A DNA stretch of 64,000 bases from Truepera radiovictrix DSM 17093 (GTDB lineage: Bacteria; Deinococcota; Deinococci; Deinococcales; Trueperaceae). The notes beneath the pieces are model-generated. The model did no database searches. It was not told the origin of the DNA and saw nothing but the letters and a program-made list of their open reading frames with translations. The stretch spans positions 1,121,001-1,185,000 of the forward strand of contig NC_014221.1 of NCBI RefSeq assembly GCF_000092425.1. The letters are read 5' to 3'. A program made the position numbers and the translations under genes. Below, one piece after another: positions 10,510 to 57,236 of the stretch (positions within the stretch are counted from its first letter, which is position 1; each line of letters opens with the position of its first letter).

Positions 10510-11726
<1,217 letters not shown>

Positions 11727-11727
<1 letters not shown>

Positions 11728-12047
11728 TGGCCGCGCCGCGCATTCGCATCAAGCTGCGGGCCTTTGACCACAAGAGCCTCGACTCGTCGGCGACGAAGAT
11801 CGTCGACACGGTCAAGCGCACGGGCGCCAAGGTGGCCGGTCCGGTTCCCCTGCCGACCCGCATCCGCCGCTTCTGCGTGCTCCGCAGCCCCTTTACCGAC
11901 AAAGACTCGCGCGAGCACTTTGAGATCCGCACCCACAACCGGCTGATCGATATCAAGACGCCGACAAAGAGCACCATCGACAGCCTTATGCATCTAGACC
12001 TCCCTACCGGGGTGGACATCGAGATCAAAACGGTCGGAGGACGGTAG
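11727..12047 (+). CDS. rpsJ: Ribosomal protein S10
   Basis: A 106-residue S10 ([28 protein letters not shown]). ATG overlaps the tuf stop by one base (TAATG), so str and S10 operons are joined by translational coupling, an arrangement known from Thermus. Confidence 0.97.
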
Positions 12048-12667
12048 TGAAAGGACTTCTCGGCACCAAGGTGGGGATGACCCAGGTGTGGCAGGGTGAC
12101 CGGCTCGTACCGGTCACGGTCGTCCTGGCTGGTCCCTGCCCGGTGGTGCAACGCAAAACCCCCGAGACGGACGGCTACAGCGCCGTTCAGCTCGGTTGGA
12201 TCGCCAAGCGGGACAAGGTGGCGACCAAACCCGAGTTGGGGCACGCCAAAAAGGCGGGGGTGAGCGCGCAGCGCCACCTCGTCGAGTTCCGCGACTACGA
12301 CCCCGAAGGGGACACCGTGACGGTGGAGATCTTCAAGCCGGGTCAGAAGGTCGACGTGACGGGGACCTCCAAGGGGCGGGGTACGGCGGGTGTGATGAAG
12401 CGCTGGAACTTCGCCGGTCTGCCCGCTTCACACGGGGTAAAGAAAAAGCACCGCGCGCCCGGGTCGATCGGTCAGCGCAAGTTCCCTGGCCGCGTCTACA
12501 AGGGTAAACGGATGGCGGGGCGTTACGGCAACGAGCGCGTGACGACCCTCGGGCTCGAGCTGCTCGAGGTGCGCCCCGACGACAACCTGCTGCTCATCAA
12601 AGGGTCGATCCCCGGCGCCAACGGCGGGCTCGTCGTCGTCAAGGCGTCGACGAGGGGGGCGAAGTGA
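12047..12667 (+). CDS. rplC: Ribosomal protein L3
   Basis: A 206-residue early-assembly protein of the 50S subunit. It begins [14 protein letters not shown]; the conserved basic loop [17 protein letters not shown] reaches the peptidyl transferase region. GTG start overlaps the rpsJ stop by one base (TAGTG). Confidence 0.97.
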
Positions 12668-13317
12668 TGGACGTAACCCTAGACGTCATCGGCTCCGAGC
12701 GCAAGGTGACGCTGGCGCTGCCCGAGCCCAAAGTATCGGTCTTGCACGAGGTCGTCTCGTGGCAGCTCTCGAAGCGCCGCCGCGGCACCGCCGCGACCAA
12801 AACCCGTGGCACGGTCTCGGGGACGACCGCGAAGATGTACCCGCAAAAGGGGACGGGGCGGGCGCGCCACGGCTCCTACAAGGCCCCCATCTTCGTGGGC
12901 GGCGGGATCGCTTTCGGGCCGCAGCCGCGCTCGTACGAGTACACCCTGCCCAAACGCGTGCGCCGCTTGGGGCTCAAGATGGCGCTCGCCGCGCGCGCGC
13001 AGGACAACAAACTCACCCTGGTCGAAGCCTTCGGCATCGGTGGGCGCACCAAAGAGTTCGTCGCGTGGGCCAAAGACCACGGCTTCGACGGTAGCGAACG
13101 GGTGCTGCTGGTCACCGACGACGAGCTCGCGCGGCGCGCCGCGCGCAACCTGCCCTGGGTGAGCGTGCTCCCCAGCCGCGGGCTCAATGTCTACGACATC
13201 TTGCGCCACGACCACGTCGTCGCCGACGCCGCGCTCTTTGCCGAGCCGGAGGAGGCGCAGGCCGCCCCGCGCCGCGTCGTCGTGACCGGGCGCCCCGCGG
13301 CTAAGGAGGAAGCGTGA
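12667..13317 (+). CDS. rplD: Ribosomal protein L4
   Basis: About 216 residues, with the exit-tunnel loop KMYPQKGTGRARHGS. In E. coli L4 also represses its own operon; no comparable S10 leader is seen here because transcription comes from the str operon. ATG 12667 (TGATG overlap with rplC) is preferred over GTG 12664. Confidence 0.96.
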   Translation: MDVTLDVIGSERKVTLALPEPKVSVLHEVVSWQLSKRRRGTAATKTRGTVSGTTAKMYPQKGTGRARHGSYKAPIFVGGGIAFGPQPRSYEYTLPKRVRRLGLKMALAARAQDNKLTLVEAFGIGGRTKEFVAWAKDHGFDGSERVLLVTDDELARRAARNLPWVSVLPSRGLNVYDILRHDHVVADAALFAEPEEAQAAPRRVVVTGRPAAKEEA

Positions 13318-35144: not shown

Positions 35145-36815
35145 GTGACGCTCCCCGAGACGCTGCGCCGCGCCCTTTTGCGCCTCGCCCCGGAGGCGCG
35201 GCGCCTGCTCGTGGCGGTCTCCGGCGGTGGCGACTCGGTGGCGCTGTTGCGGCTGCTGCTGGCGCTCCCCGAGCCGCGGTGGGGGCTCGAGGTCGCTCAC
35301 CTCGACCACGCCCTGCGCCCCGACGCGGCCGAGGCGGCGGCTTTCGTCCGGGCGCTCTGCTGGGAGCACGGGGTGGCTTGTCACACGGCGCGTGTCGACG
35401 TGGCGCGCATTGCAAAAGATAGGGGGTGGAACCTCGAGGACGCCGCGCGGCGGCTGCGCTACGGCTTCCTGACGCGCACCGCCAAGCGCGTGGGGGCGGA
35501 CGCGGTGGTCACCGCCCACACCCAGGACGACCAAGCGGAGACGGTGTTGATGCAGCTCCTGCGCGGCGCCGCTCACCTCCAGGGGATGCCCGCGCGGCAG
35601 GGGCGGGTGCTGCGGCCGCTTCTGGAGGTGCCGCGTTCGGCCTTGCGCGCCTACCTCCGGGCGTTGGGGCAGGACTGTTTGGAGGACCCCACCAACGCCG
35701 ACACCTCGCGCACGCGGGCGTGGGTGCGGCACGTCCTGCTGCCCACCCTAGCGGCGCGCGCGCCGCACGTCAAGGCGACCCTCGCGCGCCACGCCGCGCT
35801 GCAGCGCGACCAGGCGGCGCACTTTCGGCGGCTCGCGCAGGGGCTTATAAAGGACGCGGGGGCGGAGGTGCGCGCGCTACTCGCCCAAGACGTGGCGGTG
35901 CAGCGCGCCGCGGTGGCTGAGCTGCTGCGGTGCGCGGGGGTGCCGGTGGACGCGGGCCACGTGGAGGCGGTGCGCGCGGCGCTCCCCACCCCGCACCCGG
36001 TGCGTCTGTCGCTCCCGAAGGGGTACGCGGCGCGCGTCGCGTACGGGCGGCTCGAGCTCGTGGCGCCCACCGCCCCCCCGTCCCCTGCCCCCCCGCTCGA
36101 GCTGCCCGCGGAGCTCGACGCGGCGAAGCTCGCGGCGTTTCCGGCGGCGCGCTTTCGCACCCGCCGCCCGGGCGACCGCGTGCGGCTGCCCGGCGGTTCA
36201 AAAACGCTCGCGGACCTGCTCATCGACCGCAAGGTGCCGCGCGAAGCGCGCGACCGCCTGCGCGTGCTCGCCGCGCACGGCGAGGTGCTCTGGGTCGAAG
36301 GGGTGTTCGTCGACCCCCGCGTGGCGCGCGCGCCACCCGCCCCCGACGAGGACGCGCGCTGGATGCGGCTCGCGCTTAACGAGGCGCGGCGCGCGGCCGA
36401 ACGGGGCGAGCTGCCAGTGGGGGCCGTCGTGGTGCGCGGCGGCGCGGTGCTGGGGCGCGGGCACAACACCACCCGCGAGAGCGGCGACCCGAGCGCCCAC
36501 GCCGAGCTGCACGCGATCAGGCAAGCCGCTGCGGCCTTAGGCGACTGGCGCCTAGCGGGCTGCACGCTCTTTGTAACGCTCGAGCCCTGCCCGATGTGCT
36601 TCGGCGCCCTGCTCAGCGCGCACCTCCCGCGCGTGGTCTACGGCGCCACGAACGCGCGCGAGGGGGCGCTGGGCGGGGTGGCGGACCTGCAGCAGCACCC
36701 CTGGAAGCGCACCGTCGCGGTGCGCGGCGGCGTGCTCGCGGCCGAGGCGGGGGCGCTCCTCACGGCCTTTTTTAGGGCGCGCCGACAGGCGGCGTCGGGG
36801 CGGGGCGCACGTTAG
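35145..36815 (+). CDS. tilS-tadA: tRNA(Ile) lysidine synthase fused to tRNA adenosine deaminase
   Basis: A 556-residue fusion. Residues 1 to about 400 are TilS: PP-loop SGGGDS at 26-31, LDHALRPDA, HTQDDQAETVLM and the C-terminal RPGDRVRLPGGSKTLADLLID domain; it converts C34 of tRNA-Ile(CAU) to lysidine. From about 405 it is TadA: HAE at 452-454 and PCPMC with Cys482 and Cys485, which bind zinc for A34-to-inosine editing of tRNA-Arg(ACG). Both halves look active and both modify wobble bases. GATAAT 6 nt before GTG 35145 suggests a leaderless start; the frame is open further upstream but through the divergent regulator. Similar fusions are known in Deinococcus-Thermus. Confidence 0.94.
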   Translation: MTLPETLRRALLRLAPEARRLLVAVSGGGDSVALLRLLLALPEPRWGLEVAHLDHALRPDAAEAAAFVRALCWEHGVACHTARVDVARIAKDRGWNLEDAARRLRYGFLTRTAKRVGADAVVTAHTQDDQAETVLMQLLRGAAHLQGMPARQGRVLRPLLEVPRSALRAYLRALGQDCLEDPTNADTSRTRAWVRHVLLPTLAARAPHVKATLARHAALQRDQAAHFRRLAQGLIKDAGAEVRALLAQDVAVQRAAVAELLRCAGVPVDAGHVEAVRAALPTPHPVRLSLPKGYAARVAYGRLELVAPTAPPSPAPPLELPAELDAAKLAAFPAARFRTRRPGDRVRLPGGSKTLADLLIDRKVPREARDRLRVLAAHGEVLWVEGVFVDPRVARAPPAPDEDARWMRLALNEARRAAERGELPVGAVVVRGGAVLGRGHNTTRESGDPSAHAELHAIRQAAAALGDWRLAGCTLFVTLEPCPMCFGALLSAHLPRVVYGATNAREGALGGVADLQQHPWKRTVAVRGGVLAAEAGALLTAFFRARRQAASGRGAR

Positions 36816-55131: not shown

Positions 55132-55266
55132 TCACCTCAGCAGGGCGTCTTGAATAGGGTTTGGGCACGCGACTCTTCCCGAACCTTTGACCGTCCCGTT
55201 GGCCAAGGCGCCAGCACTGCTGACGACGAGAAAGAGCACCACGGCCCACCGTCGCACATTCCGCAT
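55132..55266 (-). CDS. Small secreted peptide precursor
   Basis: A 44-codon gene. The product starts MRNVRRWAVVLFLVVSSAGA and has a classical signal peptide, with likely cleavage after ALA (residue 22), leaving ~22 residues: NGTVKGSGRVACPNPIQDAL then LR, with one cysteine. ATG 55266 has GGGAGG 8 nt upstream, and TACGCT (55294-55289) is a suitable -10 box 16 nt further up, giving a short normal leader. Four GGTAAC-like repeats on 11-bp spacing lie immediately upstream of that box. The stop lies 1 nt from the regulator's stop. No homologue is known to me; a signal or regulator-controlled peptide is inferred. Confidence 0.6.
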   Translation of the reverse strand: MRNVRRWAVVLFLVVSSAGALANGTVKGSGRVACPNPIQDALLR

Positions 55267-55304
55267 CCCCACATCCTCCCTGCTTTGCAGCGTATGAGGA
55301 CCAC

Positions 55305-55379
55305 GTTACCCGCGCGTTACCTCGGCGTTACCTGCGCGTTACTGGTCTGATCCTGCCCCTCGGGTAAGGGGGAGGTAAT
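55305..55379. promoter_or_regulatory. Phased GTTACC operator array
   Basis: GTTACC occurs at 55305, 55316 and 55327 and GTTACT at 55338, exactly 11 bp apart. Opposite-strand copies GGTAAG at 55363 and GGTAAT at 55374 are also 11 bp apart. Read on the minus strand, the last repeat ends 10 nt before the -10 box of the small peptide gene. Direct repeats on 11-bp spacing just ahead of a -10 box are the known layout of SARP-regulated promoters, matching the SARP-like regulator next door. Confidence 0.7.
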
Positions 55380-55586
55380 CGGGGGGCGCTAAGGTGGCGG
55401 TGGCTTGACAAGCCTAGTGGGGGTAAAGAGTAGACTTCTCGGTTCGGCTGCTCTGATTCGACCTCACCGCACAGATCATACTCTCTCAGAGGAGGCTATT
55501 TTGGATTATTTAAATTAAGTAGTTTTTTCGTGCAGCTCTCCTAACCATAGGCGCTTGTGAAATAAGCTGGAAAGAGAGGCGAAGAA

Positions 55587-57236
55587 ATGCGGTTGAAGTG
55601 GGAGTCACTTGCGAGAGCGGTTTTTTGGACTATTGGAGTGCTGGTTCTGAATGCGTGTAGTAGCGGAATTCAACAAGATCCACCTGCCGGCGAACCGGGC
55701 CTTGAACTCTCAACTCAGGCAGCTACTTCTCATAACGTCCCCAACTCGGCAAGCGACGCAGAAGAATGGAACGGCGTGACCTACACTATGAGCCCTGTTT
55801 TGGAACTTGGTTACAAGGACCAGTCAACTGGGCTTGCACAGACGACGGGGGTGCGTTTTAGTGGAGTCAGCATACCGCGAGGGGCCACGATAACCTCTGC
55901 TTACATCGACTTCACAGCCGTAACTAGCCAGTCAGATGCGACCTCGCTGCGGATCCATGGCCAAAATGTCGGTAGCGGCGGACCGTTTGTGGAGGGTGCG
56001 AGTAACGGCGTCACGGGACGCGTGAAGACCTCCAACAGTGTCACCTGGTCACCGGAGCCCTGGACTGGTGGTTTCAAGTACTCTACCCCAAACCTTGCCC
56101 CCATAGTCAGAGAAATCACTAGCCGGTCAGACTGGGTTCAAGGGGCAGCGATGGTCTTCATCATTAAAGGTACGGGGCAGCGCAAAGCTCACGCGTTTGA
56201 TGCTGGCAACAACTTGCAGCCTGTGTTAAGAGTGACTTACCAAACCTCATTGCGCACCTGTTTGCCAAGTAAACCAACTGAAGTGCTGAGCGGAGTGTAC
56301 AATTCTAGCCTCAAACGTACGGGTAATGGCGAGACTGCCTTAAGCATCAATGCGGTCAGTGCTAAAATTGCTCCTGTATTTACAGAGCTTGGCCCTTTAG
56401 CAAGGTTGCGGTACTACAAATCGCTTTGCTTGAGCGGCGGGGTCTATACGCTTAATGAGGCGGCGGATCCTGAAGTCAAAGGAGATGACTCAAGCTGGGA
56501 AAAAGTCTTTCACCGAGGCACTGTGGGCGTGGAGTTCTGGGATTCACCGAGCACCGTGATCGAGCAGGTCGCAATAGAACTGTCTGGTGATGGCATCTCG
56601 CCACGAGGTTACAAAAACCATAACTGGTTGATTCGAGACTCTTACATTAGACACGCGGGCGATGATGGTGTTGAGAACGATTGGATGACGTCCGGAACCA
56701 TCGACGGCGTACTTATTGATTGGGCCTATACAGGCATTTCCTGTAGAGCTGGTGAGAGCCAAAGGAACGACTTGTCCAGTATCACCCCCGGTACGATAAC
56801 GATCAAAAATAGCCTCATCCGCCTTAGGAAACAGAAGTGGGGTTACAATAACGCAACTAATTTGCACAATCATTTGTTCAAGTGGGAACAGGATCAACCG
56901 GATAAAGGCTACGTCGCCAAGAAGGGGTGTAAGTTAAGGCTCATAAACAACGTGTTTATGGTCGACCAGAATGCGGGTTATTTGGATCCAGCTCAAAATC
57001 CCAAAGTCAACTATGGGCAGGTGCTCGTCGAAAGTAGCAACAACATCCTGATTTGGAGTGGACCAGAAAGCGCTTTGCCGAATAGTTATAAACAAGCCAA
57101 TCTACCGTCGGGTTTTACGCTCAAAATGGGATCTGAAGGCGCAAGCATTTGGAACACGCGTCGTAACCAGTGGTTTGATTACTACAAGCAGTTCGGCCTC
57201 TTCCAGAATTACAGAACGTTTCAAAAGCTCTATTAG
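55587..57236 (+). CDS. Secreted lipoprotein with beta-rich N domain and right-handed beta-helix-like C domain
   Basis: A 549-residue protein with a lipobox (VLNACSS, Cys24), so anchored after export. Residues ~50-230 resemble the DNRLRE-like beta domains of surface proteins (IPRGATITSAYIDFTA, IKGTGQRKAHAFDAG, LQPVLRVTYQ). The second half (about 290-500) has repetitive strands (WLIRDSYIRHAGDDGVENDW, GVLIDWAYTGISC) as in pectate-lyase-like beta helices; carbohydrate binding or cleavage is a guess. GC is clearly lower than the genome, as is its upstream region from about 55440, suggesting transfer. GAAAGAGAGG precedes ATG. Confidence 0.7.
   Translation: MRLKWESLARAVFWTIGVLVLNACSSGIQQDPPAGEPGLELSTQAATSHNVPNSASDAEEWNGVTYTMSPVLELGYKDQSTGLAQTTGVRFSGVSIPRGATITSAYIDFTAVTSQSDATSLRIHGQNVGSGGPFVEGASNGVTGRVKTSNSVTWSPEPWTGGFKYSTPNLAPIVREITSRSDWVQGAAMVFIIKGTGQRKAHAFDAGNNLQPVLRVTYQTSLRTCLPSKPTEVLSGVYNSSLKRTGNGETALSINAVSAKIAPVFTELGPLARLRYYKSLCLSGGVYTLNEAADPEVKGDDSSWEKVFHRGTVGVEFWDSPSTVIEQVAIELSGDGISPRGYKNHNWLIRDSYIRHAGDDGVENDWMTSGTIDGVLIDWAYTGISCRAGESQRNDLSSITPGTITIKNSLIRLRKQKWGYNNATNLHNHLFKWEQDQPDKGYVAKKGCKLRLINNVFMVDQNAGYLDPAQNPKVNYGQVLVESSNNILIWSGPESALPNSYKQANLPSGFTLKMGSEGASIWNTRRNQWFDYYKQFGLFQNYRTFQKLY

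Follow-up and report, generated by a model that had tools for sequence, protein, structure and literature searches.

In the window analysed here, a 64,000-nt stretch of the Truepera radiovictrix genome, a gene for a 569-aa regulator is followed by a small convergent ORF whose stop codon lies 2 nt from that of the regulator. The upstream region of this ORF is an array of short phased repeats, beyond which a divergent gene begins (Table 1). The encoded peptide starts out basic and includes a hydrophobic stretch and what looks like a signal-peptidase site, from which we infer its export.

Table 1. Positions of the genes and predicted control elements within the window.
Feature	Position	Strand	Remarks
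Regulator, 569 aa	53421..55130	+	TPR superhelix 1-378, winged helix 384-461 (recognition helix 436-450), all-helical BTAD-like domain 468-566
44-aa ORF, predicted secreted	55132..55266	-	Basic and hydrophobic Sec-like start, tail NGTVKGSGRVACPNPIQDALLR; equivalents in relatives
Shine-Dalgarno-like GGGAGGA of the peptide ORF	55274..55280	-	Sequence
-10-like TACGCT of the peptide arm	55289..55294	-	10 nt from the nearest GTAAC; offset plus 1 in 12/16 arrays
Peptide arm of the candidate operator	55305..55343	-	AGTAACG and three GGTAACG, 11-bp steps (GTTACC-like on the plus strand)
Divergent arm of the candidate operator	55363..55379	+	GGTAAG, GGTAAT, 11-bp step; counterpart arms in Thermaceae
-10-like TAAGGT of the divergent arm	55390..55395	+	10 nt past GGTAAT
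Divergent gene, 549 aa, candidate second target	55587..57236	+	Lipoprotein-like start; weak, below-cutoff similarity to beta-helix and DNRLRE

An earlier note on this DNA had described six GTTACC-like units, four direct and two inverted, and all six were found at the positions given, with 11-bp steps within each group. On the plus strand, exact GTTACC stands at 55305, 55316 and 55327 and GTTACT at 55338, followed by GGTAAG at 55363 and GGTAAT at 55374, which read CTTACC and ATTACC on the minus strand. The minus-strand order is GATTACC, CTTACC, AGTAACG, three GGTAACG, 10 nt, TACGCT, a Shine-Dalgarno sequence and ATG, so the 10-nt gap that the note had placed between the last unit and TACGCT (55294-55289) is indeed present. 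The plus-strand order is GGTAAG, GGTAAT, 10 nt, TAAGGT and then about 190 nt to the 549-aa gene; TAAGGT is a second -10-like hexamer, absent from the note. The two "inverted" units look like a second, divergent promoter arm, degenerate in Truepera, with GTAAG and GTAAT as cores.

A register scan of the window (four 6-mers in register with at most one disagreement, periods 7-15) returned this array as the single period-11 cluster in 64 kb. The scan found one other cluster, of period 12, at 36108, and similar ones arise in shuffles (periods 8, 9 and 12, each in 1 of 100). The claim that phased hexamers are very unlikely to arise by chance stands, since none of 100 order-3 Markov sequences contained any period-11 cluster. 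Throughout the 3,260,398-bp genome, GTAAC-N6-GTAAC occurs three times, all as overlapping pairs of the array, and a control with the pattern reversed gave none. By itself, GTTACC is about as frequent in the window as expected (18 against 17.6), so that the unusual feature is the phasing, and only the phasing was used.

The Pfam matches of the regulator are to TPRs, its C-terminus resembles the AfsR model only weakly (E=0.012), and among 64 aligned relatives Trans_reg_C was matched by 16 and BTAD by 2 (E<=0.1). An AlphaFold2 model of the whole protein (pLDDT 95.3, from a 64-sequence alignment) gave just TPR proteins of other kinds among the 50 Foldseek matches listed, and the C-terminus was therefore folded by itself. 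The model of the last 190 residues (pLDDT 97.2) aligns with AfsR in promoter complexes (8k60, Z 14.5, rmsd 4.3, 188/190 residues aligned; 8hvr, Z 14.1) and with EmbR (Z 12.4), the following rows having Z 9.2 and covering the winged helix only. As modelled, the C-terminal half of the regulator matches the SARP DNA-binding fold, a winged helix with an all-helical BTA domain. The TPR half gives a superhelix like those of Rap and NprR (Z 20.0-23.4 across about 320 residues), with phage Rap bound to its pheromone at Z 23.4 and NprR at 23.3; RapF, RapJ and AimR were also matched, and matches of the Rap, NprR and AimR type make up 11 of the best 26 rows, with unrelated TPR proteins scoring equally (APPBP2, Z 23.9; MalT, Z 22.6). 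The helices from residue 8 onward align with the TPR parts, with no N-terminal HTH or Rap-type bundle ahead of them. The predicted TPR fold would allow a peptide receptor, and is no proof of one.

Across the phylum, regulator matches at E<=1e-20 were present in 71 of 111 genomes. There were 120 distinct regulators with downstream DNA, reduced by clustering to 93, of which 55 are of short type (ORFs up to 680 aa, including fragments) and 38 of long type; regulators with less than 150 nt of DNA behind them, or stopping short of the C-terminus, did not enter the counts. At least three GTAAC/GTTAC cores are found downstream of 18/55 short-type and 1/38 long-type regulators, the mean number of cores being 1.62 (0.52 expected) and 0.58 (0.45 expected), respectively. 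The three cores of the long-type locus L046, at 33, 223 and 484, are not an array. A convergent secreted ORF accompanies 15/55 short-type regulators (0.5 expected from shuffles) and 5/38 long-type regulators (0.4 expected), with one call in each set that looks spurious (L120 and L007).

In a quick tree of 64 rows, with SH-aLRT support only, the regulators of Truepera, of G013 from the same family and of the Thermaceae form a clade of 23 (SH-aLRT 100). The array label, given by hand to rows with at least three cores and to L002, L059 and L112, falls on 18 of the 23 rows within this clade and on none of the 41 outside. The five clade rows that lack the label are L083, with a transposase-like insert seen by eye, L008, where the contig ends, L061, with a drifted array, and L063 and L066, with no clear array. 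The earlier note had held that repeats lost where the peptide gene is conserved would speak against its reading; instead, the arrays track the regulator clade, and the conserved units with drifting linkers that it had suggested looking for in sister species are seen across the Thermaceae, where the unit sequence drifts as well. A strict definition, which asked for three exact 6-mers at period 11, yielded nothing in an initial set of 49 other loci save for homopolymer runs in L026, and non-conservation was dropped as a conclusion once steps of 10 or 20-22 bp and a GTAAC/GTTAC core were allowed.

Close to Truepera, the sister species in the same genus (G001) has no regulator match at E<=1e-20, its looser matches being fragments at a contig start, and no complete SARP-type control element was found in it. 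In G013 the array is present and the secreted-ORF screen found no peptide ORF. A locus labelled Truepera sp. (L039, also listed as L129) comes from a genome with 9% contamination, may be a Thermaceae contig, and was excluded from the Truepera evidence. Array and peptide occur together in Meiothermus granaticius, M. luteus, a Meiothermus MAG and Calidithermus roseus, and on plasmids of Thermus thermophilus JL-18 and SG0.5JP17-16. Exact array searches were positive in 16/27 Thermus and 8/18 Meiothermus genomes, with controls at zero. Some arrays lie kilobases away from an intact regulator, where, as judged by eye, they precede extra copies of the peptide gene or genes for transporters and radical-SAM-like proteins, and in L175 and L183 the array stands beside only a regulator remnant. 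The T. thermophilus plasmid copies are flanked or interrupted by transposase genes (L186:4671-5761 and 11249-12877; L187:7911-10948), so the cassette may move.

In 12 of 16 arrays with at least three cores, the distance from the last core of the peptide side to the start of a YANNNT hexamer is exactly 11 nt (10 nt in Truepera). On the divergent side, 13 of the 16 have a TANNNT hexamer exactly 11 nt out from the first core, Truepera not among them, its degenerate divergent arm not being counted by the script. Every other offset from 3 to 21 is found in at most two of the 16 arrays. Judging from these motifs, the Thermaceae array consists of two putative promoters placed back to back, and each side has its -10 element at a distance of 11 nt. 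The repeats have 11-bp steps in the window, and steps of 10-11 and 20-22 bp in relatives; the distance from the GTNAC core to the -10 hexamer, 10 nt in Truepera and 11 nt in the Thermaceae, depends on the chosen end of the unit. SARP sites, in the portion of the literature consulted, are direct repeats 11 or 22 bp apart, the last one 8 bp from the -10, with the AfsR box spanning -40 to -19 (PMC10936776), and PimR binds 7-bp units with 3- or 4-bp spacers (PMC5930380). In keeping with the earlier note, the repeat period and, within the latitude left by the choice of unit end, the position relative to the -10 resemble those of the SARP promoters in the excerpts of PMC10936776.

In the Thermaceae arrays the peptide start follows 6 nt after the -10 hexamer, while Truepera has a Shine-Dalgarno sequence and a longer leader instead. 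The combined pattern GTNAY-N11-YANNNY-N6-RTG is found in 14/16 arrays (the exceptions being Truepera and L070, which has no recognisable peptide start), in both of two drifted loci added on sight and in 0/75 other regulator loci, and is descriptive, since it was derived from these same loci, many of the Thermus ones being close kin. The 6-nt spacing fits leaderless genes, which are common in the phylum according to the part of PMC3160421 consulted. The Thermus peptides were not picked up by a secreted-ORF filter that demanded a Shine-Dalgarno sequence; their ATG lies 6 nt past the -10, as in leaderless genes.

Within each arm, read outward to its own -10, the units share one core. This is GTAAC in Truepera (GTAAG/GTAAT in the divergent arm) and in one Thermus group; Meiothermus and a second Thermus group have GTTAC. 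L061, which has the 11/34/11 layout of L044, carries GTGAC, GTGAC, GTGAC and GTGAT in place of the four GTTAC of L044. Scattered units are thus altered alike, which is the outcome expected from recognition of all of them by one protein. In L053 and in L091, one unit does not follow the outward reading.

Other promoter-like elements were observed in the relatives. A GTNAC tandem with the same -10/ATG spacing precedes a 55-62-aa ORF ending in GLR (L197:2406 (-), L199:2644 (-), L202:2402 (+) and L204:1847 (+)), adjoining in L197 a 907-aa ORF that resembles an ATPase-type regulator, and the GTNAC box may be part of a wider SARP-like family. A GTAACGCGCYTGTAACG promoter stands before a 60-61-aa basic ORF (L194:2683 (+), L195:2587 (+) and L196:2676 (-)) and at matching sites in about nine Meiothermus genomes; blastp detected no regulator of the TPR-SARP family near it.

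The Truepera peptide has no sequence relative across 110 other genomes, and contains ACPNP without the C..P.C.PP motif of the Thermaceae, where C-x-x-P-x-C-x-P-P or a near variant is found in 28 downstream ORFs. An ORF of the 44-aa type arose by chance at the Truepera locus at a rate of 0.00 in 40 shuffles. The Thermaceae peptide ORFs have in-frame dN/dS values of 0.40 (6 sequences) and 0.48 (10 sequences), with 0.89-1.77 in other frames, in a coding test that took in two length classes, and on these ratios they appear to be under purifying selection. A value of 0.80 from an initial six-sequence Thermus set was discarded, L076 being out of frame. Four long-type regulators of other Deinococcota (L010, L012, L014 and L035) have a convergent secreted-peptide ORF and no GTNAC array.

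On the other side of the array, we infer that the 549-aa gene is a second target. It lies in a stretch of lower GC content (0.54, with about 0.65 around) and was possibly acquired. Across the arrays of the Thermaceae, cassettes with radical-SAM, ABC and MFS genes are frequent, of a kind typical of modified-peptide production to judge by their gene content. L131 has a radical SAM/SPASM enzyme closest to StsB (E=1.7e-109, below the model's cut-off), PqqD, a signal-peptidase-like protein and an ABC ATPase, L127 has ABC transporter genes, L138 an MFS protein and a sub-threshold C39-like protein, and the JL-18 plasmid annotated radical SAM and MFS genes. The regulator of strain JL-18 is TTJL18_RS11855, and its peptide ORF lacks an annotation. 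No radical-SAM cassette adjoins the Truepera locus. Several Meiothermus loci also have a conserved 215-222-aa protein across the array or in the cluster (L127:7706-8374 (+), L135:3233-3886 (+) and L145:399-1046 (-)), and the L127 copy has no match in Pfam or NCBIfam.

The repeats, their conservation throughout the clade, the -10 geometry and the domain folds, all shown computationally, allow a reading of the locus as a whole. The earlier proposal of a SARP-type operator of the neighbouring regulator before the peptide gene gains support from the C-terminal SARP fold, from a period and -10 position that are SARP-like by the published excerpts, and from conservation in the Thermaceae. By these sequence and model data, the array is very probably a bidirectional SARP-type promoter that belongs to the adjacent regulator, and we hold with much the same confidence that this regulator binds it. 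Protomers of the TPR-SARP protein would line up next to each other along the GTNAC units, one for each turn of the helix, where the -35 region is poor. They would recruit RNA polymerase both to the -10 that serves the secreted-peptide gene and to that of the divergent gene. The peptide would be exported and trimmed, and, whole or as a fragment, would re-enter the cell, where the RRNPP-like TPR superhelix would read it and thereby free or arm the SARP domain, closing a positive feedback loop that also turns on the divergent cargo. Peptide sensing with positive feedback, argued from domain similarity and gene layout, has about an even chance of being correct. We give equal odds to the full chain, a bidirectional SARP-type operator within an autoregulated peptide circuit, against which we count the distance of about 190 nt between the divergent arm and the start of the Truepera divergent gene. 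We also count against it the degenerate cores of that arm, the Truepera peptide with neither a relative nor the Thermaceae motif, the lack of a radical-SAM cassette beside it, the findings in G001 and G013, the five clade rows lacking the array label, and the unrelated TPR proteins of equal Z.

The main rival leaves the operator and the regulator unchanged and takes the peptide as a product, a secreted bacteriocin-like peptide or the precursor of a modified one, with the TPR domain sensing something else or another partner. In its favour, several Thermaceae loci have genes for radical-SAM proteins, PqqD and transporters across the array, the conserved Cys and Pro motif is a possible modification site, and extra array-plus-peptide copies occur with only a regulator remnant. 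In the four long-type loci, moreover, the peptide ORF comes immediately after a gene whose end looks, by eye, Cys-rich and SPASM-like. However, in most loci the peptide adjoins the regulator and not a modifying enzyme, it stays while cassette types change, and in Truepera it is found with the regulator and without a cassette of the radical-SAM type. A Sec-like start is moreover unusual for a precursor modified in the cytosol, and we consider this reading rather unlikely.

The array could also serve the divergent gene or an RNA alone, the Truepera 44-aa ORF being untranslated, in line with the absence of a relative of this peptide in the 110 other genomes and with the possibility that a small ORF arises by chance. 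The fitting Shine-Dalgarno sequence, start and -10 spacing, the shuffle result for this ORF and the coding constraint on the Thermaceae equivalents make this improbable. Slightly less probable again is ownership by another regulator, a SARP-like paralogue or one of OmpR type. In its favour, three other regulators of the genome are matched at E<=1e-20, and GTNAC tandems precede other genes in relatives. Against it, the arrays track the clade of the adjacent regulator, lie at the 3' end of its gene and have units that change together. Repeats that are due to chance, or are purely structural, we regard as next to impossible, given no period-11 cluster in 100 shuffles and a layout kept in other genera; nothing was found in favour.

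Returning to the autoregulated peptide circuit, the conservation of its layout in Thermus and Meiothermus suggests an unreported peptide signalling system in the phylum. A survey of 106 thermophilic bacteria, Deinococcus-Thermus included, found only traces of peptide quorum sensing and left room for unknown systems, as stated in the excerpts of PMC6022435, and no report of a TPR-SARP or peptide-pheromone system in Deinococcota was among the literature matches listed. If true, the phylum would have its first peptide quorum-sensing system, which in the Thermaceae would control modified-peptide cassettes that can replace one another, with an operator specificity that drifts in concert between paralogues. 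It would also provide a testable switch in Thermus thermophilus and draw attention to an unexplored set of thermophile peptide cassettes, and its natural operator variants (GTAAC, GTTAC and GTGAC) would be of use in studies of DNA reading by SARP domains.

Among known systems, the locus resembles those of the Streptomyces SARPs (AfsR-afsS and PimR-pimM) in the SARP fold and in direct repeats of 11 bp (or 10, or 20-22) upstream of the -10 and over the -35, and the large SARPs also carry TPRs, as far as the consulted parts of PMC10936776 and PMC5930380 describe them. The differences are a near-palindromic GTNAC core, a back-to-back double promoter, a secreted-peptide partner gene and the occurrence in Deinococcota, together with the domain order, since the SARP domain is C-terminal here (384-566, after the TPRs at 1-378) and N-terminal in the large SARPs. 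The proposed circuit would operate in the manner of the Rgg/SHP systems that govern radical-SAM peptide clusters in streptococci. With these systems, as portrayed in the available part of PMC13361665, the Thermaceae loci share a peptide-regulator pair beside radical-SAM peptide cassettes, whereas the regulator family, operator, peptide type and phylum differ, and Truepera has no adjacent cassette. The RRNPPA receptors of Bacillota (Rap, NprR, PlcR, Rgg and AimR) are similar in the shape of the TPR superhelix and in the adjacent small gene for a predicted secreted peptide. In contrast to them, the Deinococcota locus has a C-terminal SARP domain instead of an N-terminal HTH, a convergent peptide gene and a peptide-receptor role that is putative, and is found in another phylum. 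Lacking an N-terminal HTH, the regulator is not a member of the RRNPPA family, and with its domain order reversed it is not a classical SARP. It is conceivable, at a little under even odds, that Deinococcota have in their TPR-SARP proteins one more type of cytosolic peptide-pheromone receptor, in which an RRNPP-like TPR sensor is joined to a C-terminal SARP activator, next to a convergent peptide gene and a bidirectional GTNAC promoter.
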